From Clostridiaceae bacterium (GTDB lineage Bacteria > Bacillota > Clostridia > Tissierellales > Sporanaerobacteraceae): 64,000 bases of DNA. A program made the translations under genes and the position numbers. The DNA is taken from NCBI GenBank assembly GCA_019391515.1, contig JAHXQP010000025.1, positions 62,001-126,000 of the forward strand, read 5' to 3'. Below, one piece after another: positions 25,779 through 59,719 of this stretch; position 1 is the first letter of the stretch; every line of letters begins with the position of its first letter. The notes beneath the pieces were generated by a model that was not told where the DNA came from, searched no databases, and saw only the letters and a program-made list of their open reading frames with translations.

Positions 25779-26453
25779 TTGTCTAATGTGGTAAAATTTT
25801 CTTCAAAGGGGGTGAGTCTTATTAATTTCAGAGAATACTCCGAGCTTATAAACCAAATTGGTAAACAACTAGAAGAAACCCTTATTCCAATAACCATTGC
25901 ACAAAATCAAATGGAACAAGCTTTTAAACCATTTATTAACTTCCAAGATAGAATGGCAGAAACATTGGTTCCCATTATAAATATTCAAAAAAATATCTCA
26001 AAAATGTTTGAACCTATATATTCAATTTTCGAAAAATATAACGATATGATACAAGTATTTAGTGATAATATTTTGATATCTATTCAGGCTCAGCAAGATA
26101 TTTTAATTGATATTATGGATATTGACCCTAAGTTAATGGTAAAAAGTGTCTCTGATGAAAGTTCAAAAGCCATTACCCAAATTTCTTCTGAAACTATTAA
26201 TAAATTTGATTTTTATGATTATCCAGAAGAAATAAGCGAATCAAGAGAAACTGCTATTGAAATATCTAGACAAAAGTCTCAACTAACGTGGGAACAAGTT
26301 ATGACTATAATTACTTTTATAATTACAGCTATAATGTTTATACAAGCCCAGATGCCTAATAAACAACTAACAAATCTAGAGGATTCTGTACAACAATTAA
26401 TTGAGATTGAAGTTGAGGAACTAAACATTCTCAAGAAGCAACTCGACGAATAA
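25779..26453 (+). CDS. Membrane-anchored coiled protein of unknown function (cargo)
   Basis: Up to 224 residues. The start is unsure: TTG at 25779, GTG inside AAGGGGGTGAG, or ATT shortly after it are possible. The N-terminal 150 residues form amphipathic helices with repeated phrases (LIPITIAQNQMEQAFKPF, LVPIINIQKNISKMFEPI) of about 25 residues. One transmembrane helix (VMTIITFIITAIMFI) near residue 185 is followed by a short acidic coil. It runs opposite to the early operon and its 3' end overlaps the opposing gene by 23 bases. A superinfection or defence function is a guess. Confidence 0.65.
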   Translation: MSNVVKFSSKGVSLINFREYSELINQIGKQLEETLIPITIAQNQMEQAFKPFINFQDRMAETLVPIINIQKNISKMFEPIYSIFEKYNDMIQVFSDNILISIQAQQDILIDIMDIDPKLMVKSVSDESSKAITQISSETINKFDFYDYPEEISESRETAIEISRQKSQLTWEQVMTIITFIITAIMFIQAQMPNKQLTNLEDSVQQLIEIEVEELNILKKQLDE

Positions 26454-27809: not shown

Positions 27810-28208
27810 ATGAATACTATAGGTAAGAGAATAAAGATGCTAAGAGAAGATGAAAGGCTTAATCAAAAAGAACTTGCTAAAGCTTTAAATATAAGTAATA
27901 CAACTTTATCTCAATATGAAACAGGACAACGCACTCCAAGCGATGATATAAAAATAAAACTAGCTAATTTCTTCAACGTATCAACCGACTATCTTCTAGG
28001 CAGAACAGATATAAAAAATCAATCAGAAAAAATATCTAATGCAGTAGAAGACGATCCAGAATTAATAGAATTTTGGAACGAATTAAAAGAAAGAGAAGAT
28101 TTACAGCTGCTATTTAAGCAGACAAAAAATCTATCACCTAAAGATATTAAGCAGATAATTAGAATAATAAAAGCTATTGAAGATGAAGAAGATATGATAG
28201 ATCAATAA
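27810..28208 (+). CDS. CI-like prophage repressor (XRE family)
   Basis: 132 residues. Helix-turn-helix NQKELAKALNISNTTLSQYE and TPSDDIKIKLANFFNVSTDY are typical. The C-terminal half is acidic and helical, without the S24 peptidase fold, so loss of repression probably depends on the ImmA-type protease next door rather than RecA-driven self-cleavage. GAGGAGG stands before the ATG. Confidence 0.85.
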   Translation: MNTIGKRIKMLREDERLNQKELAKALNISNTTLSQYETGQRTPSDDIKIKLANFFNVSTDYLLGRTDIKNQSEKISNAVEDDPELIEFWNELKEREDLQLLFKQTKNLSPKDIKQIIRIIKAIEDEEDMIDQ

Positions 28209-28233
28209 CACAGTTCAAAAGGGGGAGATTACT

Positions 28234-28578
28234 ATGAGTATAGATATATTAGATAAATCTTTACTTAAATCACTTATAGATGGAAGTATTTCTTTTCATG
28301 AAGTAATGAATGCATATAATATTAGAACTTCTATAGCATGTAATATTTCTTCTAATGTACTAGGATTTGTTTATGTTAGTAGAAGGGGAATTTATCATTT
28401 AATACTGAATGGTAACGTTAACTATGAGACTCAATGTAAAACTTTTATACATGAAATTAAACATATTACATATGACTTGCCTAGCATGGGGTATATTATT
28501 GGTTTGGACATGCAGCATACATATTTTGAGGGTGAAGCCGATAAAGTTGCTGAATATATAGCATATTATAACTTTTAA
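28234..28578 (+). CDS. ImmA/IrrE-family metallopeptidase
   Basis: 114 residues with the zinc motif H-E-I-K-H (in CKTFIHEIKHITYD) and E-G-E-A-D-K-V-A-E-Y as the downstream Glu helix. It is co-transcribed with the repressor (25-base gap, GGGGGAG site) and would cleave it on induction, as ImmA does for ImmR. It is a short form of the family. Confidence 0.85.
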   Translation: MSIDILDKSLLKSLIDGSISFHEVMNAYNIRTSIACNISSNVLGFVYVSRRGIYHLILNGNVNYETQCKTFIHEIKHITYDLPSMGYIIGLDMQHTYFEGEADKVAEYIAYYNF

Positions 28579-28791: not shown

Positions 28792-29958
28792 TTGTCAAGT
28801 GATTTAAAAGAACAAATATCACTATTAAAAAAACAAATAGACAGTAAAAAATATGGATTATATGTAGATTCTTATCCCATGTCATTATTAGAATTAGTTA
28901 ATTTATATTCAGAAGGTGACATTAACTTAAAGGCTCAGTATCAAAGAAATTTTAAATGGACAGATGAACAGAAAACTCGACTTATCGAATCTTTATTTTT
29001 AGGGCTACCGATTCCCCCGATCTTTTTATACCAGGATGAAAATGCTATGTGGGAAGTTGTAGATGGAATTCAAAGGCTATCTACTGTATTTCAATTTTTC
29101 GGCAGATTAAAGAAAAATGATAAAGAATATTATGATCCTTTGCAATTAACAGAAGCTCCTGAACTCACTTATTTAGAAAATCTAACTTATGAAAAGCTAC
29201 CTAAAGAATTACAAAGAGAATTTAAGAAACTAAGATTTGATCTAATCATAATTTCAAAGAAAAGTGATCAAGATGTAAAACTAGAAATTTTTAGGCGTTT
29301 AAATGGATTTGGAACAAAACTCACTCCTCAAGAACTAAGAAATGCATTAATAATTTTAGCTAATCCTGATTTTTTTGATTTCATTGATGAGCTTAGTAAT
29401 TTTGAACCATTTCTAAATTGCATAAGCCTTAATGAAATGCAAGAAAATGATAAAAAGAAAAAAGAAAAAATTGAAGAGCAAATAAAAGATAAAAAACATT
29501 ATGAATATGTTATTAGGTATTTAGTTTTAAGGGAAAAGAATGTTCTACTTAATTATCCATCAAAATCAGATGACAAAATTAATGAATTATTTGATAAGGC
29601 TATAATAAAAATAATAAATGAAAATCTTATAAATTTTTATGAAGAAAAAAAGCTATTTAAAGACGTATTTGTATTCCTAGATGAAACATTAGGCTCGAAT
29701 TCTTTTAAAAAATTCTATCATGATAAAGGTAAATATCAACAACAGACCAGAGAATCTATATTTGAAGTAATCGTACCTGGTTTGGCCCAAAACTTAGATT
29801 ATTATAAAATTTATCCAGATACATTTGAAGCTAATGTAAAAAAATTATATTTGGAAAATAGTCCTTTTGAATTAACACTAAAACCAAATCCTAGGGTTAT
29901 AGATAGAATGAAAAAATTGATTGAAATTAGCGAGGAAATATTCAACAAAAATGAGTAA
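28792..29958 (+). CDS. DUF262 (GmrS/ParB-like) protein, first gene of cargo
   Basis: 388 residues from TTG, chosen because AAAGGAG is 9 bases upstream; an earlier in-frame ATG abuts the same site. N-terminal DUF262 domain: YQRNFKWTDEQKTRLIESLF, L-P-I-P-P-I-F-L-Y and V-V-D-G-I-Q-R-L-S-T, where D-G-x-Q-R is the nucleotide-handling motif of GmrSD-type and other anti-phage proteins. A charged helical C-terminal half follows. The next gene, a HEPN protein, overlaps its stop by 8 bases. DNA here is more A+T-rich than the phage genes, which suggests separate transfer. Confidence 0.85.
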   Translation: MSSDLKEQISLLKKQIDSKKYGLYVDSYPMSLLELVNLYSEGDINLKAQYQRNFKWTDEQKTRLIESLFLGLPIPPIFLYQDENAMWEVVDGIQRLSTVFQFFGRLKKNDKEYYDPLQLTEAPELTYLENLTYEKLPKELQREFKKLRFDLIIISKKSDQDVKLEIFRRLNGFGTKLTPQELRNALIILANPDFFDFIDELSNFEPFLNCISLNEMQENDKKKKEKIEEQIKDKKHYEYVIRYLVLREKNVLLNYPSKSDDKINELFDKAIIKIINENLINFYEEKKLFKDVFVFLDETLGSNSFKKFYHDKGKYQQQTRESIFEVIVPGLAQNLDYYKIYPDTFEANVKKLYLENSPFELTLKPNPRVIDRMKKLIEISEEIFNKNE

Positions 29959-30622
29959 ACTAGAAAAAAAAATTAATATGAGTGCTCATAACAGAATATT
30001 AGAAATTAACTACATGTTTTCTAAAATAAATAGTTTTGATAACCCTATTGATAAATATTTCTTTTCTAGAACTGTGGTTGTTTTTACATACGGAACCTTA
30101 GAAAAATTTATAAAAGAATCTACAGAAATCGCTATAGGACTAGCCATAAAAAATGAATACTATAATAACAATCATATTCAAGAGCTTATGCAAGCTATTA
30201 ATTACAAAAATAATCCATCAGAACTACTTGATCTAATTTTGTTTTATAAGCTTAACAACTATTATAGAAATGAATTTATCACCGCAAAAGATAAAGGCTA
30301 TTTTTCTCGTTTTGGCAGAATTGATTCAAAAGCAATCGCTACTATAATTAATACATTAAACTTGAATAGATTTGAACCTAGAATTAAAATTCCAAAACTT
30401 TCAATAGATAACATTGCAAAAAAAAGAATGGATTTTGCTCATGGGGATTATATACGTGATCTACAAAGATTTTCTGTATTAAGAGGTGACTTATCAATAG
30501 AAGAAGTGGACAAATATATTAATGAATCTTTGTACCTAAATTCTACTACTAGAAAAGAAATTGTTGATTTTATTACTGATTTTAAGAATAAAATAATACT
30601 TTTTATATCTGACATTAAATAG
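29951..30622 (+). CDS. HEPN-domain protein (MAE_28990/MAE_18760 type)
   Basis: 223 residues from the ATG that overlaps the DUF262 stop. All-helical, with a conserved F-T-Y-G-T-L-E-K-F-I-K-E opening and a C-terminal R-x4-H motif (A-K-K-R-M-D-F-A-H-G-D), the HEPN ribonuclease signature. MAE_28990-type HEPN proteins are, as I recall, often next to DUF262 proteins, and the translational coupling here supports a two-protein complex. RNA cleavage on phage infection is the likely role but is inferred. Confidence 0.75.
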   Translation: MSKLEKKINMSAHNRILEINYMFSKINSFDNPIDKYFFSRTVVVFTYGTLEKFIKESTEIAIGLAIKNEYYNNNHIQELMQAINYKNNPSELLDLILFYKLNNYYRNEFITAKDKGYFSRFGRIDSKAIATIINTLNLNRFEPRIKIPKLSIDNIAKKRMDFAHGDYIRDLQRFSVLRGDLSIEEVDKYINESLYLNSTTRKEIVDFITDFKNKIILFISDIK

Positions 30623-30690
30623 CTATAGAATTATTATCATATCTATAGTAATATATAATATAGAATTACTACATTTGAGGAGCGAATTTT

Positions 30691-32205
30691 ATGATGAAAA
30701 CTTTAATTGGTTTAATTGAACAACAACAAATTGAATATTCCACTACACAAAAAAAAGAATATCTAAAAAATAACTCTCAGTTTTTTACTCCATATAATAT
30801 TGCTCTAAAGATGGTAAATACTATAGATATGGAACAATATTATAATAAAAATACCTTATATATCTTAGAACCTTCCGCTGGGTTTGGAATTTTAATTGTA
30901 TCTCTAATTAATTATATTATAAAATTCAATAAAGATACTAAGCTTAAAAAAATAGTTATAGATGCTTATGAAATAGAAAAAGAAATATCTACAACTTTAA
31001 ATAAAAATTTAAAGTTACTTAAGCATATGATAGAAAGTGATTACAATATATCACTAGAATACAAAGTTATAAATAAAAACTTTATATTGCACAATAAAGA
31101 CAAATGGAAATCTGATAATATCAACTATAAATACGATATAATTATTTCTAACCCTCCATTTGACAAAATAAATCAATCTTGTGAAGAAGCAAAGATTATG
31201 AAGAACATAATACATGGGCAACCAAATATATATACACTATTTATAGCTATGTCTTTAAAACTATTAAAACATAGTGGAACATATGTAGTTCTTAGCCCTA
31301 GAAATTATCTAAATGGAACGTATTCTATAAAACTCAGAAGCTTTATCTCTAATAATTATAGCTTAGTCCACCTACACTCATTTGAAAGAAGGACTATTTT
31401 TAATTTAGTTTTTCAGGAAATTATAATATCCACTTATATAGGAAAAAAATCAAACAATAATAACATTGAAATTTCCTATAATGGAACATCCAGCTTTACA
31501 ACAAAAATTGATAACTTAATTTCCGATAAAAAAACGAAGTCATTGATATTACCAAAATCAGAAAATGAGTTGGCTTCTTTTAAATCATTTTCAAAATTTA
31601 AATATAAACTAAAAGATATTAATTTAAAAGTTTCTGTAGGATCCGTAGTACAGTTTAGAGAAAAACATGTATATGATAATATTTATGCACCTAAAAAAAA
31701 TTACCCTCTATTAGTCAATGTAGATATTTTAGAAAACAATATAATAAATTATTACAATAGGAAAAACACAAGAAAAACTCACAAAAAATCTATTTCAAAT
31801 AAATCAAAAAGACTTATTAATAATTCTAATTACGTCATAGTAAGGAAAATAACTGCTAAAAACAGTAGTAATCTTCTTCTTGCTGCAGTACTACATAAAG
31901 ATTATTTTAATACAGATAAAATAGGTCTCGATAATAACTTGGTTTATTTCCATAAACTTAATAATAGTGAGTTAAGTATTAAAGAAGCTTATGGGATATA
32001 TTGCTTTATATCCTCTTCTTACTTTAAAAAAATGTATAGTCTAATTAATGGCACTCATACAATAAACATAAGTGATTTTAATAATATAAAATTTCCTTCT
32101 GAAAAAAAACTAATAGCTCTAGGAGAAGAACTTATAAAAGCTAATGAATTCACAGAAGAAAAATGTGATGAAATATTTGAAAAGTATTTTATTAGAATTA
32201 AATAA
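30691..32205 (+). CDS. Adenine-specific DNA methyltransferase (Eco57I/TaqI-like)
   Basis: 504 residues (MMKTLIGLIEQQQIEYSTTQ). Motif X-like NNSQFFTPYNIALKMV, SAM motif I L-E-P-S-A-G-F-G-I-L and catalytic motif IV S-N-P-P-F mark an N6-adenine gamma-type enzyme. The C-terminal half (from about 270) would be the target recognition domain. No restriction nuclease of a known type is next to it; the DUF262/HEPN pair ends 68 bases upstream. It could protect self DNA for that pair or be an orphan. The region is strongly A+T-rich. Confidence 0.85.
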   Translation: MMKTLIGLIEQQQIEYSTTQKKEYLKNNSQFFTPYNIALKMVNTIDMEQYYNKNTLYILEPSAGFGILIVSLINYIIKFNKDTKLKKIVIDAYEIEKEISTTLNKNLKLLKHMIESDYNISLEYKVINKNFILHNKDKWKSDNINYKYDIIISNPPFDKINQSCEEAKIMKNIIHGQPNIYTLFIAMSLKLLKHSGTYVVLSPRNYLNGTYSIKLRSFISNNYSLVHLHSFERRTIFNLVFQEIIISTYIGKKSNNNNIEISYNGTSSFTTKIDNLISDKKTKSLILPKSENELASFKSFSKFKYKLKDINLKVSVGSVVQFREKHVYDNIYAPKKNYPLLVNVDILENNIINYYNRKNTRKTHKKSISNKSKRLINNSNYVIVRKITAKNSSNLLLAAVLHKDYFNTDKIGLDNNLVYFHKLNNSELSIKEAYGIYCFISSSYFKKMYSLINGTHTINISDFNNIKFPSEKKLIALGEELIKANEFTEEKCDEIFEKYFIRIK

Positions 32206-32210
32206 AGCCG

Positions 32211-32242
32211 AAAGCTAGTATTCTCTTACTAGCTTTTATTTA
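32211..32242 (+). terminator. Terminator of the cargo genes
   Basis: AAAGCTAGTA / TACTAGCTTT perfect stem with a 6-base loop, then T. It isolates the methyltransferase from the integrase. Confidence 0.85.
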
Positions 32243-32340
32243 TTATATTTTTTGAATATAATAAATATATAAATACCAATGACATGATATTGTAAAAATA
32301 GCTATCTACTCCAGTAAATTTAAATAAGGAGAGTGATAAT

Positions 32341-33492
32341 ATGGCCGGATCTATAGAAAAGCGTGGCAAGAATAAATATAGATTAACTGTATCTATAGGA
32401 AGCGGAAAAAATAGAAAAAGATACAGAAGGACTGTAGAATGTAAAACTAAATCTCAAGCAGAAAAAGAATTAGCCAAATTTGTAGCTGAAATAGAAGGCG
32501 ATAATTTTATAGAGCCTTCTAAATTAACATTTAAATCATACGCTAATAAATGGCTAGATGATTATGCAAGGCCCAACCTAGCACCTAAAACCGTATATGA
32601 ATATGAAAGATTGTTAGAACTACGAATATTGCCTTTCTTTGGCCACATGAAACTAAATAAAATTAAACCCATTCATATATTAGACTTCTACAAAGCACTA
32701 CAAAGGGAAGGCACGCTTTCTAATAACTCAATAATGCATTACCATAGACTATTAAGAAAGATGTTTAATGACGCTGTTAAGTGGCAAATATTAAATGATA
32801 ACCCTGTTGTGAGAGTGGATCCTCCAGCAACAACTAAACCAAAGGCTAAATATTATGACGAAGAGGATATTGATAAACTAATGAAAGCCTTAGAAGGAGA
32901 ACCTACTAAATATGTATGTGCTATACTTGTAACTATGGCATCCGGGTTTAGATTAGGAGAATTAATGGGTTTGCAATGGAAGCATATTGATTTTAAAAAT
33001 AACACTATAGAAATAGAACAATCAAACCAATACTTGCCAGGAGAAGGAACCTTTACGAAAGATCCCAAAAATGAAAATTCAAATAGAATAATATCAATAC
33101 CAGAGCCAACTATGAGAATTTTAAAAATACATGAAACCAATGAAAAAGAGAAAATGCTTAAATGTGGGGAGTTATGGGAAGGAGGAGACTTCCAAAATAA
33201 TTTTATATTCACCCAATGGAATGGAAAACCTATGCACCCTGGGACACCATCAAAATGGTTTTCTCAATTTATAGAGAGAAAAGGATTAAAGAAAATAACA
33301 TTTCATCAATTAAGACATACATCAGCTACTATGTTAATACATGCAGGACTAAATATAAGGGCCCTATCTGCCAGGCTAGGACATTCAAATACCTCTACTA
33401 CACTAAACATATATTCACATGCCTTAAAATCTGCTGATAAAGTAGCAGCAGAAAAAATGAAAGATATAATGTTTGGAAGTGAAAAAAAGTGA
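32341..33492 (+). CDS. int: Phage tyrosine recombinase (integrase)
   Basis: 383 residues. N-terminal arm-binding domain (GSIEKRGKNKYRLTVSIGSG), core-binding domain (LTFKSYANKWLDDYARPNLA) and catalytic domain with Arg in GFRLGELMGLQW, H-Q-L-R-H-T, and the Tyr in NTSTTLNIYSH. Integrates at the 3' end of the adjacent tRNA-Arg, 118 bases downstream. AAGGAGAG before the ATG. Confidence 0.97.
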   Translation: MAGSIEKRGKNKYRLTVSIGSGKNRKRYRRTVECKTKSQAEKELAKFVAEIEGDNFIEPSKLTFKSYANKWLDDYARPNLAPKTVYEYERLLELRILPFFGHMKLNKIKPIHILDFYKALQREGTLSNNSIMHYHRLLRKMFNDAVKWQILNDNPVVRVDPPATTKPKAKYYDEEDIDKLMKALEGEPTKYVCAILVTMASGFRLGELMGLQWKHIDFKNNTIEIEQSNQYLPGEGTFTKDPKNENSNRIISIPEPTMRILKIHETNEKEKMLKCGELWEGGDFQNNFIFTQWNGKPMHPGTPSKWFSQFIERKGLKKITFHQLRHTSATMLIHAGLNIRALSARLGHSNTSTTLNIYSHALKSADKVAAEKMKDIMFGSEKK

Positions 33493-33517
33493 GAACGAAA
33501 ACACAAAATAACTTAAA

Positions 33518-33536
33518 ATGTCCCCAAAATGTCCCC
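33518..33536 (+). promoter_or_regulatory. Two ATGTCCCC repeats 11 bp apart, candidate integrase arm sites
   Basis: ATGTCCCCAAAATGTCCCC lies between the integrase stop and the tRNA. Direct repeats of this kind next to an attachment core are the usual targets of the integrase N-terminal domain. Confidence 0.5.
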
Positions 33537-33565
33537 AATATCACATTATGTAAACTAATTTTAAG

Positions 33566-33601
33566 TAAAATAAAAACCCTGCAACCATTAAGATTGCAAG
33601 G
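33566..33601 (-). terminator. Terminator of tRNA-Arg
   Basis: Minus-strand stem CCTTGCAA / TTGCAGGG followed by TTTTTATTTT. Since it stands on the phage side of the junction, the phage supplies the terminator for the tRNA. Confidence 0.75.
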
Positions 33602-33609
33602 CTTCAACA

Positions 33610-33686
33610 TGGCACACCCTGAGGGACTCGAACCCCCAACCGACTGATTCGAAGTCAGCTACTCTATCCAATTGAGCTAAGGGTGC
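33610..33686 (-). tRNA. tRNA-Arg (anticodon TCG), prophage attachment site
   Basis: Cloverleaf with acceptor GCACCCT / AGGGTGT, anticodon loop C-T-T-C-G-A-A, T-loop GTTCGAGTC and encoded CCA. The integrase gene ends 118 bp from its 3' end, so the phage attachment core is in the 3' part of this tRNA. The gene remains complete. Confidence 0.95.
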
Positions 33687-33741
33687 ATACTTTCTACCCT
33701 TTTATATTATAAATATAAATAGATATATAGTCAAATTCAAT

Positions 33742-33912
33742 TTATTTAATCTCTATGGCTTTGAAAGGACAAATTGTCACACAAGTCTTACATTTTATAC
33801 ATCTTGTTTCATTTATTTTAGGAATATCCACCATTTCTATTATACCAATAGGACATACTTCAACACATTTGCCACAACTTTTGCATCTATCATAATTTAT
33901 TTTGATTAACAT
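33742..33912 (-). CDS. 4Fe-4S ferredoxin-like protein
   Basis: 56 residues from MLIKINYDRCKSCGKCVEVC; an earlier start lacks a site, while GGAGATGATTGT precedes this ATG. Two C-x-x-C-x-x-C-x3-C-P clusters (CKSCGKCVEVCP and CIKCKTCVTICP) bind two 4Fe-4S centres. A small electron carrier of anaerobes. It stands alone after the tRNA. Confidence 0.9.
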   Translation of the reverse strand: MLIKINYDRCKSCGKCVEVCPIGIIEMVDIPKINETRCIKCKTCVTICPFKAIEIK

Positions 33913-33981
33913 ACAATCATCTCCATATAAAATAATAATATACAATTATATTATATATTATTTTAAAATTAAATAAAATAT

Positions 33982-34018
33982 AAAAGTCCCAGATTATCAA
34001 AGACAATCTGGGACTTTT
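33982..34018. terminator. Bidirectional terminator
   Basis: AAAAGTCCCAGATT / AATCTGGGACTTTT, a perfect 14-bp stem. It ends the subtilase transcript. Confidence 0.85.
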
Positions 34019-34097
34019 CCCCTTTAGTCAAATTATTCTACAATGATATAGGAACAGGCTTTATTTACTTAACTATAATACTTTTATTTACTTTATA

Positions 34098-35264
34098 CTA
34101 CCTATAATAATTAATAGCATCAAGAGCTTGCACTAACCCTGAGCCGTAATGATTTGTATTTCCTAACCCTTTAGCAGTTCTAACTAAACTTTCACGAACT
34201 TGAATATTAGTTAATCTTGGATTTGCTCCCCAAACTAATGCAGCAGAACCAACTACATGCGGACAAGCCATTGATGTCCCACTCATAGTTGTATATCTAT
34301 TGTTCGGGTAAGTGCTATAAATATCTACTCCTGGAGCTGCTATTTCAATAGCTGGTCCATGAGCTGAAAAAGAACCACGTTTATTGCTAGAATCTGTTGC
34401 TGCCACTGCTATAACTGAAGAGTATCTTGCAGGATAATCTACTGTATCTCCAGTTCCTGATGGATTACCGCTATTGCCTGCAGCTGCCACTACTAAAAGA
34501 CCTGAATTATATGCAAGATCACACCAATCTTTTAGTATTGATGAATGACTAGAAGTTCCTAGACTCATATTTAGAATGTCCATATTATTTTTTATAGACC
34601 ATTCTATACCTTTAGCAATTCCAGAAAGAGAACCTGAGCCATAACTATTCAATACTTTTACTGCATATAAATCTACATTATATGCTACACCTCTGACACC
34701 TATTGAATTATCAAGAGCAGCTATTGTACCTGAAACATGGGTACCATGTCCATTTCCATCACTATAAGGACTGTCATTAAATACTGAATATCCACCTCTA
34801 ACATTTAAATCGCTATGTCTATTATCAATACCTGTATCAAGAACTGCAACCTTAACACCTTTTCCTGTATAATTATATTTATGAGCATCCGTTGCTTGAA
34901 CTCTGCTAATTCCCCATGGTATTGTTTGTGCTGAGGCTTTAAACTCAATATTAGGTTCAACATTTTTTATATTGGAATCTTTTTTAAGAGCTTCTACTTG
35001 TTTTTCATCTAGTTTTAAACAATAAACTGGGAGTAAATCATAGGTTTCTAAAATATCTTTTTCTTGCACATTAATAGAATTTAAAATACTCTTTTCTTTA
35101 GCCATAATACTAGCTTTAGATAAATTTTCTACACCTGGAATATCAAACTGTACTAAATATTCTTCTTTTGCTGAACTTATGTTTCCCAAAGCTGCATCTG
35201 CTTGAAATCCAATAGTTCCTAAACATATTAACAAACTTAACAGTACCGCTAAAAATCTCTTCAT
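34098..35264 (-). CDS. Secreted subtilisin-like serine protease (S8)
   Basis: 388 residues. Start MKRFLAVLLSLLICLGTIGF after GGGGGG; signal peptide ends near Q-A-D-A. Then an I9-type propeptide (about residues 35-105, EEYLVQFDIP ... NVEPNIEF) and the catalytic domain with D (V-A-V-L-D-T-G-I-D), H (G-H-G-T-H-V-S-G) and S (S-G-T-S-M-A-C-P-H). A typical extracellular protease, probably for peptide scavenging, which fits the oligopeptide transporter further on. A second, longer subtilase is at 61846. Confidence 0.93.
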   Translation of the reverse strand: MKRFLAVLLSLLICLGTIGFQADAALGNISSAKEEYLVQFDIPGVENLSKASIMAKEKSILNSINVQEKDILETYDLLPVYCLKLDEKQVEALKKDSNIKNVEPNIEFKASAQTIPWGISRVQATDAHKYNYTGKGVKVAVLDTGIDNRHSDLNVRGGYSVFNDSPYSDGNGHGTHVSGTIAALDNSIGVRGVAYNVDLYAVKVLNSYGSGSLSGIAKGIEWSIKNNMDILNMSLGTSSHSSILKDWCDLAYNSGLLVVAAAGNSGNPSGTGDTVDYPARYSSVIAVAATDSSNKRGSFSAHGPAIEIAAPGVDIYSTYPNNRYTTMSGTSMACPHVVGSAALVWGANPRLTNIQVRESLVRTAKGLGNTNHYGSGLVQALDAINYYR

Positions 35265-35286
35265 TTTAATTCCCCCCATAATATAT

Positions 35287-35313
35287 ATTCTAAATTTTCT
35301 ATTAATTTAGAAT
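35287..35313. repeat. Inverted repeat upstream of the subtilase
   Basis: ATTCTAAATT / AATTTAGAAT around a short A+T loop, about 25 bp before the subtilase start. It could be an operator or a weak end for the upstream gene. Confidence 0.35.
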
Positions 35314-35355
35314 ATTATAATTGTAGATCTCCATTCCTTTTTTTGCGCCTGTTCC

Positions 35356-36234
35356 TTATTTAGGGATGAAATAATTATGAAAAATATATACTGTTATTAT
35401 TATAATAACACAAAAAATGGAATTGTAAATAGTTTTTGCCATTATTTTTATCAAGATATTGCTTATTTGAACCCTATTTAAAAATCGAATAGGGAGTACA
35501 CTATTTCCTAATCCACTATCTATATACAATATAGAATTTTCTAGATCAAACAGTCCTTTATCATATCTAGGAAAATATCCTTGGCCTGGAGCTACTACTG
35601 CTCCTATTATTGGCAATCTTACTTGACCACCATGAGTATGACCAGAAAGTATTAAATCTTCTCTTCCATTTAAATATTTTAAAGGCCTATTTGGAGAATG
35701 GGAAAGAATTATATTAAAATCTTTTTCATCTATTCCTTCTATAGCTCTATTATAACCTTTCTCATCCATAAAAAAATTAAGTCCAATAATATTTATTTCA
35801 TTATTAGCTATTTCGTACTTTATGTTTTCATTGTTTAACACAATAACTCCTATGTTTTTCAATTCTTCTACAAATTCTTCTCCCTTAGTATTTCTAAGTT
35901 CATGATTTCCCCATACAAAATATATTTTTTCTGTAATATCCATTAAATCTTTTACGATATTTAATGAGTAACTAAAATCTTTTGTTTTACCATCTATTAT
36001 ATCACCTGTTAAAAAGATTACGTCTGGGTCTATATTTTCTATTTCTTCAATTAATCTATTCTTATTTATGAGCTTATTATTATGAAAATCTGTAATCTGG
36101 ACTATATTTAAATCATTAGATATTTTATCATTATTCAATACTACTTTATTAATTTTAAAATATTTAATTTGAATCAATATATATATTAAAAATATTATTA
36201 TGATGGATAACAAAATATATGTCTTTGTTTTCAT
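35356..36234 (-). CDS. Membrane-anchored metallophosphoesterase (YkuE-like)
   Basis: 292 residues. N-terminal transmembrane helix, then calcineurin-like motifs in order: ITDFHNN (D-x-H), FLTGDIIDG (G-D), VWGNHEL (G-N-H-E), and LSGHTHGGQV (G-H-x-H). A second hydrophobic helix is at the very C-terminus, unusual for the YkuE group. Such enzymes hydrolyse phosphodiesters outside the membrane, for example in lipid or cell-wall turnover; the substrate is unknown. Confidence 0.85.
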   Translation of the reverse strand: MKTKTYILLSIIIIFLIYILIQIKYFKINKVVLNNDKISNDLNIVQITDFHNNKLINKNRLIEEIENIDPDVIFLTGDIIDGKTKDFSYSLNIVKDLMDITEKIYFVWGNHELRNTKGEEFVEELKNIGVIVLNNENIKYEIANNEINIIGLNFFMDEKGYNRAIEGIDEKDFNIILSHSPNRPLKYLNGREDLILSGHTHGGQVRLPIIGAVVAPGQGYFPRYDKGLFDLENSILYIDSGLGNSVLPIRFLNRVQISNILIKIMAKTIYNSIFCVIIIITVYIFHNYFIPK

Positions 36235-36266
36235 CCCATAATTTTCCTCCCATTTTTTTGTAAATA

Positions 36267-36290
36267 AAAAAATTGGCTTTCGCCAATTTT
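36267..36290 (-). terminator. Terminator of the tRNA operon
   Basis: AAAATTGGC-GAAA-GCCAATTTT on the minus strand with more T after. Four bases after tRNA-Leu. Confidence 0.85.
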
Positions 36291-36293
36291 ATC

Positions 36294-36377
36294 TGGTGCG
36301 GGAGAGAGGACTTGAACCCCCACGTCAATGACACTAGATCCTAAGTCTAGCGCGTCTGCCAGTTCCGCCACTCCCGC
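36294..36377 (-). tRNA. tRNA-Leu (anticodon TAG)
   Basis: 84-base class II tRNA: acceptor GCGGGAG / CTCCCGC, variable arm, anticodon loop C-T-T-A-G-G-A, CCA encoded. Last in the five-tRNA operon. Confidence 0.95.
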
Positions 36378-36380
36378 AAG

Positions 36381-36457
36381 TGGTGACCCATCGGCGACTC
36401 GAACGCCGGACTCCCTGATTAAAAGTCAGGTGCTCTGCCAACTGAGCTAATGGGTCA
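36381..36457 (-). tRNA. tRNA-Lys (anticodon TTT)
   Basis: Acceptor TGACCCA / TGGGTCA, anticodon loop C-T-T-T-T-A-A, GTTCGAGTC T-loop and CCA. Three bases before tRNA-Leu. Confidence 0.95.
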
Positions 36458-36460
36458 AAA

Positions 36461-36538
36461 TGGGGTGGATAGTGGGATTCGAACCCACGACCTCCAGAGC
36501 CACAATCTGGCGCCCTAACCAACTAGGCCATACCCACC
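36461..36538 (-). tRNA. tRNA-His (anticodon GTG)
   Basis: Acceptor GTGGGTA / TATCCAC with an extra 5' G opposite C73, anticodon loop T-T-G-T-G-G-C, CCA encoded. Confidence 0.95.
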
Positions 36539-36560
36539 ATAGTATTTAATTTGTTCATCC

Positions 36561-36637
36561 TGGTGCACCTAGGAGGATTCGAACCCCCGGCACACGGATT
36601 AGAAGTCCGTTGCTCTATCCAACTGAGCTATAGGTGC
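36561..36637 (-). tRNA. tRNA-Arg (anticodon TCT)
   Basis: Acceptor GCACCTA / TAGGTGC, anticodon loop C-T-T-C-T-A-A, CCA encoded. A different isoacceptor from the prophage-target tRNA-Arg. Confidence 0.95.
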
Positions 36638-36647
36638 GTTATACTTT

Positions 36648-36721
36648 TGGAGCGGGTGAAGGGAATCGAACCCTCGTAGCTGGCTTGGGAAGCCAGTGCT
36701 CTACCACTGAGCTACACCCGC
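36648..36721 (-). tRNA. tRNA-Gly (anticodon CCC)
   Basis: Acceptor GCGGGTG / CACCCGC, anticodon stem CTGGC / GCCAG with loop T-T-C-C-C-A-A, CCA encoded. First in the operon; reads GGG codons, which are rare in such A+T-rich genomes. Confidence 0.93.
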
Positions 36722-36808
36722 AATACATTTAAGATTGCAGTAACTCCAAATACTACACCCGCGATTACTTCCCAAGCTTTCGTCAAGCTTTCTTGCTGAC
36801 AATTTAAA

Positions 36809-57535: not shown

Positions 57536-59719
57536 TTAAATTATTTCTATTGGGGCTACAGAAAGTAATAATTTCTTTATCCCTTGCTCCTTAAATGCTA
57601 CAACTATTTCCATATCTCCACTTTTTTCTTTTACTTGAACTACAGTACCTTCTCCCCACTTTTTATGTCTTACTTTTGAACCAATACTTACATTTTGTTT
57701 ATTTTTATTCATTCCTCTTAACTTATCTTTCTTTCCTATTTCCCCGAAACTTAAATTGGAAGTTTTAAATCCTTGGGTATTTAGTCTTTCTTCATCTCCA
57801 TCTTGAATAATAGCCCTAGGCATTTCTTTTAAAAATCTAGAAGGTAAACTATAAGTTGTATTTCCATATATAGTTCTTAAATTAGCATAAGTTATATATA
57901 ACACTTCTTCTGCCCTAGTTACAGCCACATAACAAAGCCTTCTTTCTTCTTCTAACTCAGATTCACTATCTAAGGCCCTGCCCATAGGGAATAGACCTTC
58001 CTCCATACCAACTAAGAATACTACTGGAAATTCCAATCCTTTAGCACTATGAACTGTAAGCATAGTTACAGACTCATCAGCTTCTTCCATATTGTCTACA
58101 TCGGATAATAATGAAATATCAGCTAGAAAATCTTCCAATGTACCTTCTTCATTGATCATTTCAAAATCTATAGCTACAGAAATAAACTCTTTAAGGTTTT
58201 CTATTCTTGTTGTAGCCTCAATAGTATCTTCCTTCTCCAATTCATTTATATATCCTGTGTCATTGACTACTTCTTCTATAAAATCCTTTAGATCCATAAC
58301 TTCCTTCATAGCAATAAATTCATTTATCATGTCAGTAAATTTAGTTAGATTATTTGTAGCTCTCTTTGAAAGACCTGGTATATCTTCTACATCCAATATA
58401 GCGCTATATAAACTTTCTCCAGTTTGAGAAGCATAGTTTTCAATCTTCTCTATTGTAGCTGCGCCTATTCCTCTCTTAGGTACGTTTATAACCCTTCTAA
58501 AAGAAATATCATCTACTGGATTTTGAATAAGTCTTAAATAAGCAATTATATCCTTTATTTCTTTCCTGTCATAGAATTTCAATCCACCAACTATTTTATA
58601 AGATATATTTCGCCTCATAAATACTTCCTCAAAAGAACGAGATTGAGCATTGGTTCTATAAAGAATTGCACATTCTGAAGGTTTATGCTTTCCGCTATCA
58701 ACTAGTTCCCTTATAGTTTCAGCTACAAAATTAGCTTCATCCCTTTCATCAAAGGCTTTATTAAGTATAACTGGACTTCCATCTATATTATCTGTCCAGA
58801 GTTTCTTATTTTTTCGTTCATTATTATTCTTAATTATAGAATTAGCTACAGTCAATATATTCTTAGTAGAACGATAGTTTTGCTCTAATTTTATTATTTT
58901 AGCATCTGGAAAATCCTTCTCAAAATCAAGGATATTCCTTATATCAGCCCCTCTCCACCCGTAAATCGACTGGTCATCATCTCCTACCACACATAGATTT
59001 TTATATCTTTCAGAAAATAGTTTTATAAGTTCGTATTGAGCTTTATTTGTATCTTGGTATTCATCTACAAATATATATCTAAACTTCCTTTGATAAAATT
59101 CTAATACATCTGGGTTTGTCCTAAGTAGTTGAATAGTTTTTAAGATTAGATCATCAAAATCTAGTGCGTTGTTCTTCCTCAATTTTTTTTCATAAAGATC
59201 ATATATTTTTCCGACAGTCTCATTATAATAGTTTCCTTCATTAGCTTTAATATAAGTATCTGGACCTTTCATTTTGTCTTTTAATGAGCTTATTATACCT
59301 AATATAGTCTTTTCCTTAAACATTTCCTTATCTACATTCTGCTCTTTTATACATTCTTTTATAAGAGTCTTTTGATCTGCCGTATCATATATAGTAAAAC
59401 TTCTATCATATCCTATTTTATTAATATTCATTCTAAGAATTCTTACACATATAGAATGGAAAGTTCCTATCCAAATATCTTCTATCTTATCCCCTACAAG
59501 ACTGCCTACTCTTTCTTTCATTTCATTAGCAGCCTTGTTTGTAAAAGTAATAGCTAAAATATTGTTTGGAAAAACTTCCTTTTCCTCTATCATATAAGCT
59601 ATTCTATGGGTAAGTACCCTAGTCTTTCCCGAACCTGCTCCTGCCAATATAAGAAGAGGCCCTTCTGTATGTAGCACAGCCTCCTTTTGTCTATCATTTA
59701 GTCCTTCAACAAAACTCAT
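57536..59719 (-). CDS. pcrA: ATP-dependent DNA helicase PcrA
   Basis: 727 residues, UvrD/Rep family. Walker A LAGAGSGKTRVLTH, motif II FVDEYQDTNKAQ, motif III VGDDDQSIYGWRGAD, motif IV LEQNYRST, motif V TVHSAKGLEFPVVF, motif VI CYVAVTRAEE. C-terminal KKWGEGTVV tudor-like domain that meets RNA polymerase. Acts in repair and plasmid or phage rolling-circle replication. 15 bases upstream of ligA. Confidence 0.97.
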   Translation of the reverse strand: MSFVEGLNDRQKEAVLHTEGPLLILAGAGSGKTRVLTHRIAYMIEEKEVFPNNILAITFTNKAANEMKERVGSLVGDKIEDIWIGTFHSICVRILRMNINKIGYDRSFTIYDTADQKTLIKECIKEQNVDKEMFKEKTILGIISSLKDKMKGPDTYIKANEGNYYNETVGKIYDLYEKKLRKNNALDFDDLILKTIQLLRTNPDVLEFYQRKFRYIFVDEYQDTNKAQYELIKLFSERYKNLCVVGDDDQSIYGWRGADIRNILDFEKDFPDAKIIKLEQNYRSTKNILTVANSIIKNNNERKNKKLWTDNIDGSPVILNKAFDERDEANFVAETIRELVDSGKHKPSECAILYRTNAQSRSFEEVFMRRNISYKIVGGLKFYDRKEIKDIIAYLRLIQNPVDDISFRRVINVPKRGIGAATIEKIENYASQTGESLYSAILDVEDIPGLSKRATNNLTKFTDMINEFIAMKEVMDLKDFIEEVVNDTGYINELEKEDTIEATTRIENLKEFISVAIDFEMINEEGTLEDFLADISLLSDVDNMEEADESVTMLTVHSAKGLEFPVVFLVGMEEGLFPMGRALDSESELEEERRLCYVAVTRAEEVLYITYANLRTIYGNTTYSLPSRFLKEMPRAIIQDGDEERLNTQGFKTSNLSFGEIGKKDKLRGMNKNKQNVSIGSKVRHKKWGEGTVVQVKEKSGDMEIVVAFKEQGIKKLLLSVAPIEII

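Follow-up and report, generated by a model that had tools for sequence, protein, structure and literature searches.

What does the cargo between the repressor-type gene and the integrase gene of this prophage do? In the window, by which we mean the whole stretch of 64,000 nucleotides analysed here, this gap holds genes for a DUF262 protein, a HEPN protein and an adenine methylase, closed by a terminator (Table 1). According to the original prediction the three could be one system in which DUF262 senses DNA, HEPN cuts RNA and the methylase marks self.

The features on which this proposal was built are all present. The DUF262 gene has a TTG start behind an AAAGGAG-like ribosome binding site and encodes VDGIQR, i. 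e. the D-G-x-Q-R motif. It is overlapped for eight bases by the HEPN gene (ATG at 29951), which encodes R159-MDFA-H164 as the R-x4-H motif, and 68 bases past the HEPN stop codon begins the open reading frame of the methylase with its S-N-P-P-F. The terminator is as strong as had been described (fold z -5.4; 0 of 200 shuffles equally good). The set, three genes in 3.4 kb, is indeed more A+T-rich than the phage genes to its left, with a GC content of 0.23-0.28 versus 0.30-0.35 at 20.0-27.5 kb.

Table 1. Features of the cassette and its surroundings; positions are those of the window.
Feature	Position	Strand	Basis
Phage repressor-type HTH protein, upstream of cassette	27810-28208	+	PHROG transcriptional regulator 1.5e-28
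Small ImmA-like protein (weak family evidence)	28234-28578	+	Sub-threshold Pfam; PHROG of unknown function 5.2e-5
Exchangeable cargo segment	28564-32322	.	Flanks ~94% identical to sister prophage
DUF262 protein (GmrSD_N / ParB-Srx fold), 388 aa	28792-29958	+	Pfam, PADLOC, motif, AlphaFold2 model
Predicted HEPN protein, MAE_28990-type pair, 223 aa	29951-30622	+	Held-out profile, invariant motif, predicted fold
N6-adenine DNA methyltransferase, PstI/BsuBI type, Eco57I Pfam family, 504 aa	30691-32205	+	Pfam, PHROG, relatives, tree
Intrinsic terminator, cassette end	32210-32237	+	Fold and shuffle test
Tyrosine integrase, downstream of cassette	32341-33492	+	PHROG integrase 1.5e-84; Pfam Phage_integrase 1.1e-28
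Likely attachment core in tRNA-Arg	33604-33658	.	Degenerate copy elsewhere; tRNA-Arg gene 33610-33686, minus strand

That the gap is a site for exchangeable cargo, as had been assumed, is supported by a sister prophage, which has a SIR2-type gene in the exact place of the segment; its flanks match positions 27958-28563 and 32323-36752 onward. The ImmA-like protein, which contains HEIKH, shows 94% DNA identity in the sister prophage. A degenerate copy of the likely attachment core lies about 40 kb away (contig C30:55179-55233, corresponding to L013 3180-3234); no tRNA gene was found in L013. Near both ends there are ATGTCCCC repeats.

The window DUF262 protein matched the Pfam family PF03235 (GmrSD_N) at 8.3e-27. 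Among the PADLOC profiles NsnA, which we take to be a Menshen protein, scored better (5.9e-53) than PD-T4-2_A (8.1e-23); relatives of the window protein matched PD-T4-2_A more strongly, at best with 3.5e-42 among the six tried. Its AlphaFold2 model (pLDDT 90.5) was matched best in VIA-align by BrxU (Z 8.7, rmsd 14.8 over 288) and SspE (Z 7.8, rmsd 3.9 over 141) and more weakly by DndI (Z 6.0). A profile of the DUF262 proteins found no match at the set limit among the sequences of solved structures. No HNH domain of the DUF1524 type was found in the window protein by Pfam, and the corresponding [DE]HxxP motif occurred in 0 of 113 DUF262 proteins, the window protein included.

The HEPN protein was harder to assign. 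It gave no useful match in Pfam, PADLOC, NCBIfam or PHROG (one Pfam row, E 0.17, is at chance level), and it lacked a match to PF18737, which like PF18735 was matched by 48 of the 50 aligned members. No PADLOC profile matched any of the five other HEPN proteins tried either. Four lines of evidence support the assignment nevertheless. A profile of 48 homologues, from which the window and L104 proteins had been held out, detected it with E 2.9e-5 (Z set to 5280) and the L104 protein, which is 47% identical to it, with 7.5e-9. Six residues are invariant across the 50 aligned sequences (R15, Y47, E51, R159, H164, G165); the catalytic motif is intact in the window protein and followed by G165, and Rx4HG is retained in 104 of 105 full-length proteins, the window protein included. 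The predicted fold (pLDDT 77) was matched best by the HEPN toxin 7ae6 (Z 9.9, rmsd 4.2 over 140), and eight of the nine top VIA-align rows were HEPN toxin or HEPN-MNT entries (Z 8.6-9.9), the other one being a designed helical filament (9.2). Foldseek returned nothing at E 0.001 for this model. Against the sequences of solved structures the protein itself had no match at the set limit, and the HEPN profile had two chance-level ones. A tblastn search with the window protein against phages and plasmids found none; it missed even the HEPN gene that a Terrisporobacter phage has at that place and is thus too insensitive to show absence. We predict that the protein cuts RNA.

The methylase carries the motifs PSAGFG and SNPPF and matched Pfam Eco57I (1.3e-13) and a PHROG DNA methyltransferase family (1.7e-119). 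Its relatives place it in the PstI/BsuBI type, whose usual partner endonuclease is missing here: a PstI-type endonuclease was found neither at the locus nor in the window's genome nor in the genome G031, with a search that was positive in five of five control genomes, two of which had contributed to the profile.

Do the pair and the methylase belong together? A search for the same gene order, which the original prediction had named as a check, found DUF262-HEPN-methylase again in five further loci: the Terrisporobacter phage TVCOM_ph1, Sporosalibacterium, two viral contigs and a Cetobacterium plasmid. Pair and methylase thus recur together, and the case in which a methylase never accompanies the pair did not arise. 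These comparisons drew on 11 of the 163 plasmid records in which a relative of the methylase had been found and on two of three phage records; L153, one of seven viral loci, had no methylase by profile. In a scan of 249 genomes from the same taxonomic order, four gave a match to the methylase query and six to the DUF262 query; both matched in two (G000 and G031), at one locus in each. Recurrence and co-location together indicate that the association is more than chance.

The 26 PstI-type methylase loci that came from methylase searches (the window counted, L147 and L148 being near-copies) divide into 17 with a BsuBI/PstI endonuclease, two with both this endonuclease and DUF262-HEPN, and seven with DUF262-HEPN alone. 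"Endonuclease only" was judged within the fetched stretch, which for L018 extends about 1.5 kb to either side, and L081 was labelled as DUF262-HEPN in the methylase tree though no HEPN gene was found there. A solitary PstI-type methylase occurred in none of the 26 within the fetched stretches. The window methylase falls into a clade of six rows (support 100/100), all with DUF262-HEPN only and in the order DUF262-HEPN-methylase; without the long-branched Cetobacterium row this holds for five of five (100/99; 96/97 in a second analysis). In this tree L166 (and L173) have long branches, and several rows, the window clade among them, have an odd letter make-up. In the pair of relatives L122/L123 dN/dS was 0.27 for DUF262, 0.14 for HEPN and 0.30 for the methylase, which therefore looks kept.

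Within the window clade the trees disagree. The DUF262 tree joins the window with L104 (100/100), and in the methylase tree of 30 rows L104 lies closer to L010 and L123 (89/88, 83/73). In AU tests the grouping of window and L104 was not rejected for the methylase (p 0.112); for DUF262 a single clade of all five was not rejected (p 0.183), but L104 with L010, L123 and L161 was (p 1e-5). This conflict could reflect either an exchange of the pair between methylases or fast divergence.

A broader view comes from the neighbourhoods of the DUF262 proteins. They were collected with a query alignment of five seeds, four of them methylase-linked; of 211 genome relatives the best 80 were kept, and 17 of 130 loci were removed as near-copies. 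L106 stops inside its HEPN gene, and in L097 neither a HEPN nor a methylase gene was recognised. Adjacent same-strand methylases were absent in 82 of the 112 DUF262 rows; the methylase thus belongs to particular lineages only. In this respect the three-part proposal has to be narrowed: the set is recurrent and the roles fit the comparative data, but most of the pairs do without an adjacent methylase. Methylase-like genes, assigned by profile or short motifs, were found at gene positions -1 (21/85), -2 (6/60), +1 (5/53) and +2 (3/48) and hardly farther out (-3, 0/47; -4, 1/37; +3, 1/42; +4, 1/37). By Pfam, 24 of the 32 methylase-type neighbours were Eco57I and three C5.

One alternative is that the cargo consists of two independent modules, a PD-T4-2-like DUF262-HEPN pair and an orphan phage methylase that shields the phage DNA from host restriction. 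Phages frequently carry orphan methylases, and the many rows without an adjacent methylase suit this explanation as well. However, the concentration of methylase-like genes next to the pair, the constant order in the window clade and the lack of solitary PstI-type methylases all argue against it, and we regard it as improbable.

In the tree of 112 DUF262 proteins (L023, L081, L133 and L145 omitted) one clade has restriction-modification genes, i. e. a methylase or an endonuclease gene, within 2.5 kb in 28 of 30 cases. Three of its positives (L151, L166, L174) came via methylase searches, were added to the tree and were entered by hand, here as in the count of adjacent methylases, for which L025 too was labelled by hand; without these three and the four methylase-linked seed loci (the window, L010, L089, L037) the count, made by hand, is 21 of 23. 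Outside the clade such genes were present in 14 of 82, six of the 14 being a second methylase-linked viral group. As the clade was picked after the tree had been seen, the Fisher value for the contrast of 28/30 to 14/82 is descriptive only.

These neighbourhoods suggest another explanation, in which DUF262-HEPN is a guard of restriction-modification that kills the cell once the guarded system becomes overwhelmed or is blocked, in the way PrrC does for its type I system; the window's copy would then be a remnant that has lost its endonuclease. Complete PstI-type systems are accompanied by the pair in varied layouts (methylase-endonuclease-DUF262-HEPN; methylase-DUF262-HEPN-endonuclease; a methylase/endonuclease fusion followed by DUF262-HEPN; convergent methylase-endonuclease and HEPN-DUF262). 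Elsewhere the neighbour of the pair is a different adenine methylase or a C5 methylase, which means that one type of pair serves unlike systems. Such a role was proposed for restriction-linked HEPN proteins in the available text of a 2013 survey (PMC3710099). Yet in six of six loci of the window clade, a Fusobacteriota plasmid among them, methylase and pair are retained and the endonuclease is lacking, so nothing would be left to guard unless the methylase itself is guarded. We consider a guard rather unlikely for the window cassette.

Very improbable, in our view, is an addiction module that stabilises the prophage, with HEPN as a toxin, DUF262 and/or methylation as its antidote and defence as a secondary effect. 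The overlapping genes, the toxin-like predicted fold and the place in the prophage immunity region would fit. But pairs of this kind are found on many genome contigs from unlike bacteria (80 loci, the best of the 211 relatives) and together with restriction systems, and DUF262, with 388 residues and an NTPase motif, would be a large antitoxin.

The interpretation that we favour, at slightly less than an even chance, is that the cassette is a relative of restriction-modification systems with the DUF262-HEPN pair as substitute for the PstI-type endonuclease: the methylase would mark self, DUF262 would read the mark or foreign DNA, and HEPN would arrest the cell by cutting RNA. For this interpretation speak the lack of solitary methylases, the uniform window clade, the two genomes in which the endonuclease was not found, the DUF262 clade rich in restriction-modification genes, dN/dS values below one in the relatives, the likeness of the DUF262 model to BrxU, SspE and DndI without [DE]HxxP, and the retained Rx4HG motif. 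In such a cassette the methylase would put adenine marks into a specific sequence on the DNA of the lysogen. DUF262, as an NTP-binding reader of the ParB/Srx type, would form a complex with HEPN and test DNA, and marked self-DNA would hold the complex off. Unmarked DNA of an incoming phage, or loss of the mark, would lead DUF262 to switch HEPN on; HEPN would then cut RNA, the infected cell would stop, and the lysogen population would be spared from other phages. What the sequences show is the set of genes with its intact motifs, the recurring order, a DUF262-HEPN pair at the place of the endonuclease of relatives, and dN/dS below one in relatives; complex formation, sensing of the mark, RNase activity and the abortive outcome are what we infer for this cassette. 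Put more generally, it might stand for a kind of restriction-modification whose effector cuts RNA and is gated by DNA methylation, so that a missing methyl mark causes RNA cleavage and growth arrest and no DNA break; this we propose only tentatively and with some doubt.

Several points count against gating by the mark. Among the DUF262-HEPN pairs examined, those with an adjacent methylase are the minority, so a mark is not needed for the pair to work. Several loci hold a complete PstI-type system besides, for which a backup role fits equally well. The methylase is the last gene of the operon, and a promoter of its own was not supported by the shuffle test: 31 of 200 shuffles did as well as the 10-of-12 site of the window gap, a site that beats all 200 exists in the Cetobacterium gap only, and promoter-like sites in the region occur in chance number (30 versus 30.7). 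Finally, the precedents are split. In DndI the self-mark stimulates the ATPase and holds the enzyme away from self-DNA, and the protein is toxic in cells without the mark, in line with our reading; SspE, another DUF262 protein that reads a mark, shows no activity and does no harm when the mark is missing, the opposite of what gating would predict here (both from the available text of PMC11662687).

The combination is partly known. The original prediction could not name such a three-part system, but the combination is not without precedent: a table of the 2013 survey (Anantharaman et al.) lists the MAE_28990 HEPN "in operon with a ParB nuclease and DNA methylase genes", i. e. the same three gene types. 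This is one table line, and in the available text of the survey neither a replaced endonuclease nor a prophage setting appears (PMC3710099). With DUF262-HEPN pairs such as PD-T4-2 (HEPN families MAE_28990/RiboL-PSP) the window cassette shares both components, a matching DUF262 protein and a HEPN partner, here too divergent for Pfam; PD-T4-2 is described with DUF262 and HEPN domains and, in the accessible part of the source, with no mention of a methylase (PMC10952713). Menshen, to which the NsnA match points, combines DUF262 with an OLD nuclease (same source, same part), unlike the HEPN and methylase neighbours found here. Type II systems of the PstI/BsuBI family share the methylase and differ by their endonuclease, in whose place the window has DUF262-HEPN. 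GmrSD/BrxU, SspE and DndI share the DUF262 domain with DGxQR, and SspE and DndI also the reading of a self-mark proposed here (PMC11662687, in its available text). However, the window protein is not a DUF262-HNH protein in one chain as DndI and SspE are; it lacks the HNH motif and its effector would be the separate HEPN protein. The mark in the cassette would be N6-methyladenine and neither phosphorothioate nor a cytosine modification. Papers on BREX and CoCoNuT and restriction reviews, as far as their text was available, show HEPN, GmrSD or PrrC in other couplings. Literature searches, which covered few subscription papers and give a weak negative, found none naming DUF262, HEPN and methyltransferase together (the 2013 survey says "methylase") and none on HEPN, BsuBI and restriction; among the NsnA/NsnB matches listed, none was about defence.

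If the favoured interpretation is right, an RNase answers to a self-mark on DNA, and restriction-modification and abortive infection are joined in a minimal unit of three genes carried by phages. The cassette would then allow a direct test, in endonuclease-free form, of the 2013 idea that HEPN RNases are coupled to restriction systems, with a ready comparison set, since one methylase family is found with the endonuclease, with DUF262-HEPN alone, or with the two together. Were the effector gated by methylation, the cassette would be the methylation counterpart of the phosphorothioate-sensing DUF262 enzymes, and mark-reading by DUF262 proteins would extend from phosphorothioate to methyladenine.

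The DUF262, HEPN and adenine methylase genes lie in a tailed-phage prophage, most of which falls inside the window. Ahead of a tRNA-Arg gene, which is probably the end of the prophage, the plus strand carries a repressor, a small ImmA-like gene, the three-gene cassette and a tyrosine integrase, all in the same direction. The stretch 33604-33658 has a degenerate copy about 40 kb away (contig C30, 55179-55233), where no tRNA gene was found. The cassette has a higher A+T content than the genes on its left.

A sister prophage from the same genus (genome G001) is about 94% identical to the window over 27958-28563 and from 32323 rightward. Between these two flanks a SIR2-domain gene replaces all three cassette genes, and thus DUF262, HEPN and methylase act as one piece of cargo. 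In other phage-like records (L010, L104, L122, L123) the cassette genes are likewise flanked by an HTH or ImmA gene on one side and an integrase or recombinase on the other; L123 has a second ImmA-like gene between cassette and integrase. In the HEPN-methylase gap of the window, L010, L123 and a Sporosalibacterium locus (L161), a short box like CTATAGTA, a possible promoter or operator, was seen by eye upstream of the methylase.

Features of the cassette, the sister prophage (locus L011) and other parts of the window
Feature	Position	Strand	Remarks
DUF262 gene	28792-29958	+	first of cassette
HEPN gene	29951-30622	+	8-base overlap with DUF262 gene
Adenine methylase gene	30691-32205	+	last of cassette
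Terminator	32210-32237		closes cassette
SIR2-domain protein, 549 aa	L011 10294-11943	-	SIR2_2 6.4e-25; PADLOC candidate PDC-S25 4e-123
224-aa gene	25779-26453	+	strand opposite to neighbours; kept in sister prophage; top PHROG match only E 0.02
Match to C. difficile sRNA n00280 (Rfam)	57882-57979	-	67.2 bits, barely over the gathering score of 65.2

The DUF262 protein belongs to Pfam GmrSD_N and contains VDGIQR, a motif found in 111 of 113 DUF262 proteins; the [DE]HxxP motif is absent from it. Its confident structural model (pLDDT 90.5) was nearest to BrxU (Z 8.7, rmsd 14.8 over 288 residues), SspE (7drs; Z 7.8, rmsd 3.9 over 141) and ParB proteins. The HEPN protein, which had no Pfam match, is a divergent HEPN member with an intact Rx4HG motif: a HEPN profile that left out both this protein and its nearest relative picked it up at 2.9e-5. 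HEPN toxins were the best structural matches of its model (pLDDT 77), at Z 9.9 with an rmsd of 4.2 over 140 residues, and made up eight of the nine top rows; the same list contained a designed helical filament (Z 9.2). Foldseek alone gave nothing significant for this model. The methylase, assigned by Pfam to the Eco57I family, has intact PSAGFG and SNPPF motifs and counts the TaqI methylase among its relatives with solved structures.

The combination of HEPN, ParB nuclease and DNA methylase was already tabulated in 2013 (PMC3710099), and both DUF262 and HEPN domains are listed for the defence system PD-T4-2 (PMC10952713). In 106 of 113 non-redundant DUF262 loci a HEPN gene was next on the same strand, most commonly with a 4-base overlap; locus L022, where Pfam recognised the HEPN (PF18737, 3e-16), adds a 107th pair. 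Methylase-like genes occurred near DUF262 at positions -1 (21/85 loci), +1 (5/53), -2 (6/60) and +2 (3/48), and farther out at -3 (0/47), -4 (1/37), +3 (1/42) and +4 (1/37). Eighty-two of the 112 rows of the DUF262 tree were labelled as lacking an adjacent same-strand methylase, and 64 of them form two groups made up exclusively of such rows (34 and 30). The window falls in a group of 30 rows (SH-aLRT 97). Methylase or endonuclease genes lie no more than 2.5 kb away, counting both strands, in 28 of these 30 and in 14 of the 82 rows outside (Fisher 8e-14, descriptive only, as the group was chosen from the tree and kinship was not corrected for). The figure is 21 of 23 when the seed loci and the rows recruited through the methylase are taken out. 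A second group linked to methylases consists of six viral rows. From the tree grouping and this gene linkage, a restriction-linked branch of DUF262-HEPN therefore seems to exist alongside stand-alone, PD-T4-2-like pairs. This branch has several kinds of partner: PstI-type methylases and other adenine methylases (430-620 aa), some accompanied by proteins of about 1,010 aa. Five of 32 methylase-like neighbours matched the C-terminal Pfam domain of M.Eco57I. In L041, L047 and L059 a methylase of 541-615 aa and a protein of 1,009-1,022 aa adjoin the pair upstream of DUF262, an arrangement that resembles Eco57I type IIG systems.

The window methylase represents the M component of a PstI/BsuBI-type system. 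We scanned 36 loci, window included, with profiles for methylase, BsuBI/PstI endonuclease, DUF262 and HEPN. Among the 26 that came from methylase searches and held the methylase (window included), the endonuclease adjoined it in 17, endonuclease and DUF262-HEPN were both present in two, DUF262-HEPN occurred without endonuclease in seven (including the near-copies L147 and L148, with methylases of their contigs 97% identical), and the methylase was solitary in none. For the Cetobacterium locus, one of the seven, HEPN was called from position, size and an RTRVVH motif, without a Pfam family match. A tree of 30 methylases unites, with full support, those of the window, Sporosalibacterium, a Terrisporobacter phage, two viral contigs and a Cetobacterium plasmid, all with DUF262-HEPN only. 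Cetobacterium is a long branch, and the other five cohere without it. The partner labels need 7 changes on this tree versus 12.4 in shuffles. DUF262-HEPN without endonuclease occurs at one further place, L026, and perhaps at a second, L081. A profile search of the genomes of the window and of Sporosalibacterium (G031) found no PstI-type endonuclease; it did give matches in five genomes with a known enzyme of this type, two of which had sequences in the profile. Our literature search found no description of this endonuclease replacement or of the restriction-linked branch. Gene content, order, recurrence, replacement and intact motifs are direct observations.

In L026 (1-5503, Flavobacterium johnsoniae CI04) two DUF262-HEPN pairs diverge with a PstI-type methylase in the middle, and no PstI-type endonuclease was found within this stretch. 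In L081 (298-3481, a Terrisporobacter MAG) the DUF262 frame is split in two, and the neighbouring methylase, which is full-length, belongs to another branch; HEPN was not detected there. In L159 (G542:C6:562919-565242) the PstI-type endonuclease beside its methylase gives two separate matches with about 1.5 kb between them, a pattern like that of a gene split by an insertion.

Six rows of the methylase tree have both endonuclease and DUF262-HEPN. Such loci fit the main rival explanation, that HEPN is a second-line guard of restriction systems, as Anantharaman et al. proposed (PMC3710099). The endonuclease-less group fits it more poorly, unless the methylase itself is guarded, and we consider a guard role rather unlikely for the cassette. 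dN/dS of the three genes was 0.14-0.30 between L122 and L123, and 0.15-0.40 in more distant pairs (dS > 1). The window group has retained the methylase despite the loss of the endonuclease. The most economical reading is that DUF262-HEPN depends on the methylase in the way an endonuclease would.

A precedent exists among phosphorothioate-reading DUF262 proteins with HNH. According to PMC11662687, the self-mark raises the ATPase of DndI, which then leaves self-DNA, and DndI is toxic without the mark; SspE is a counter-example, being harmless without the mark, which it requires for activity. With HEPN in place of HNH and methyladenine in place of phosphorothioate, a mark-gated mechanism of DndI-like or SspE-like form would follow for the cassette. 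In L022 (405-3199, minus strand) a C5-cytosine-type methylase lies immediately upstream of the pair, so adenine is not necessarily the marked base. We give close to an even chance to the reading in which the methylase marks self-DNA, DUF262 tests DNA and HEPN cuts RNA; the steps would then comprise formation of a complex, marking of a given site, sensing, RNA cleavage and abortive infection.
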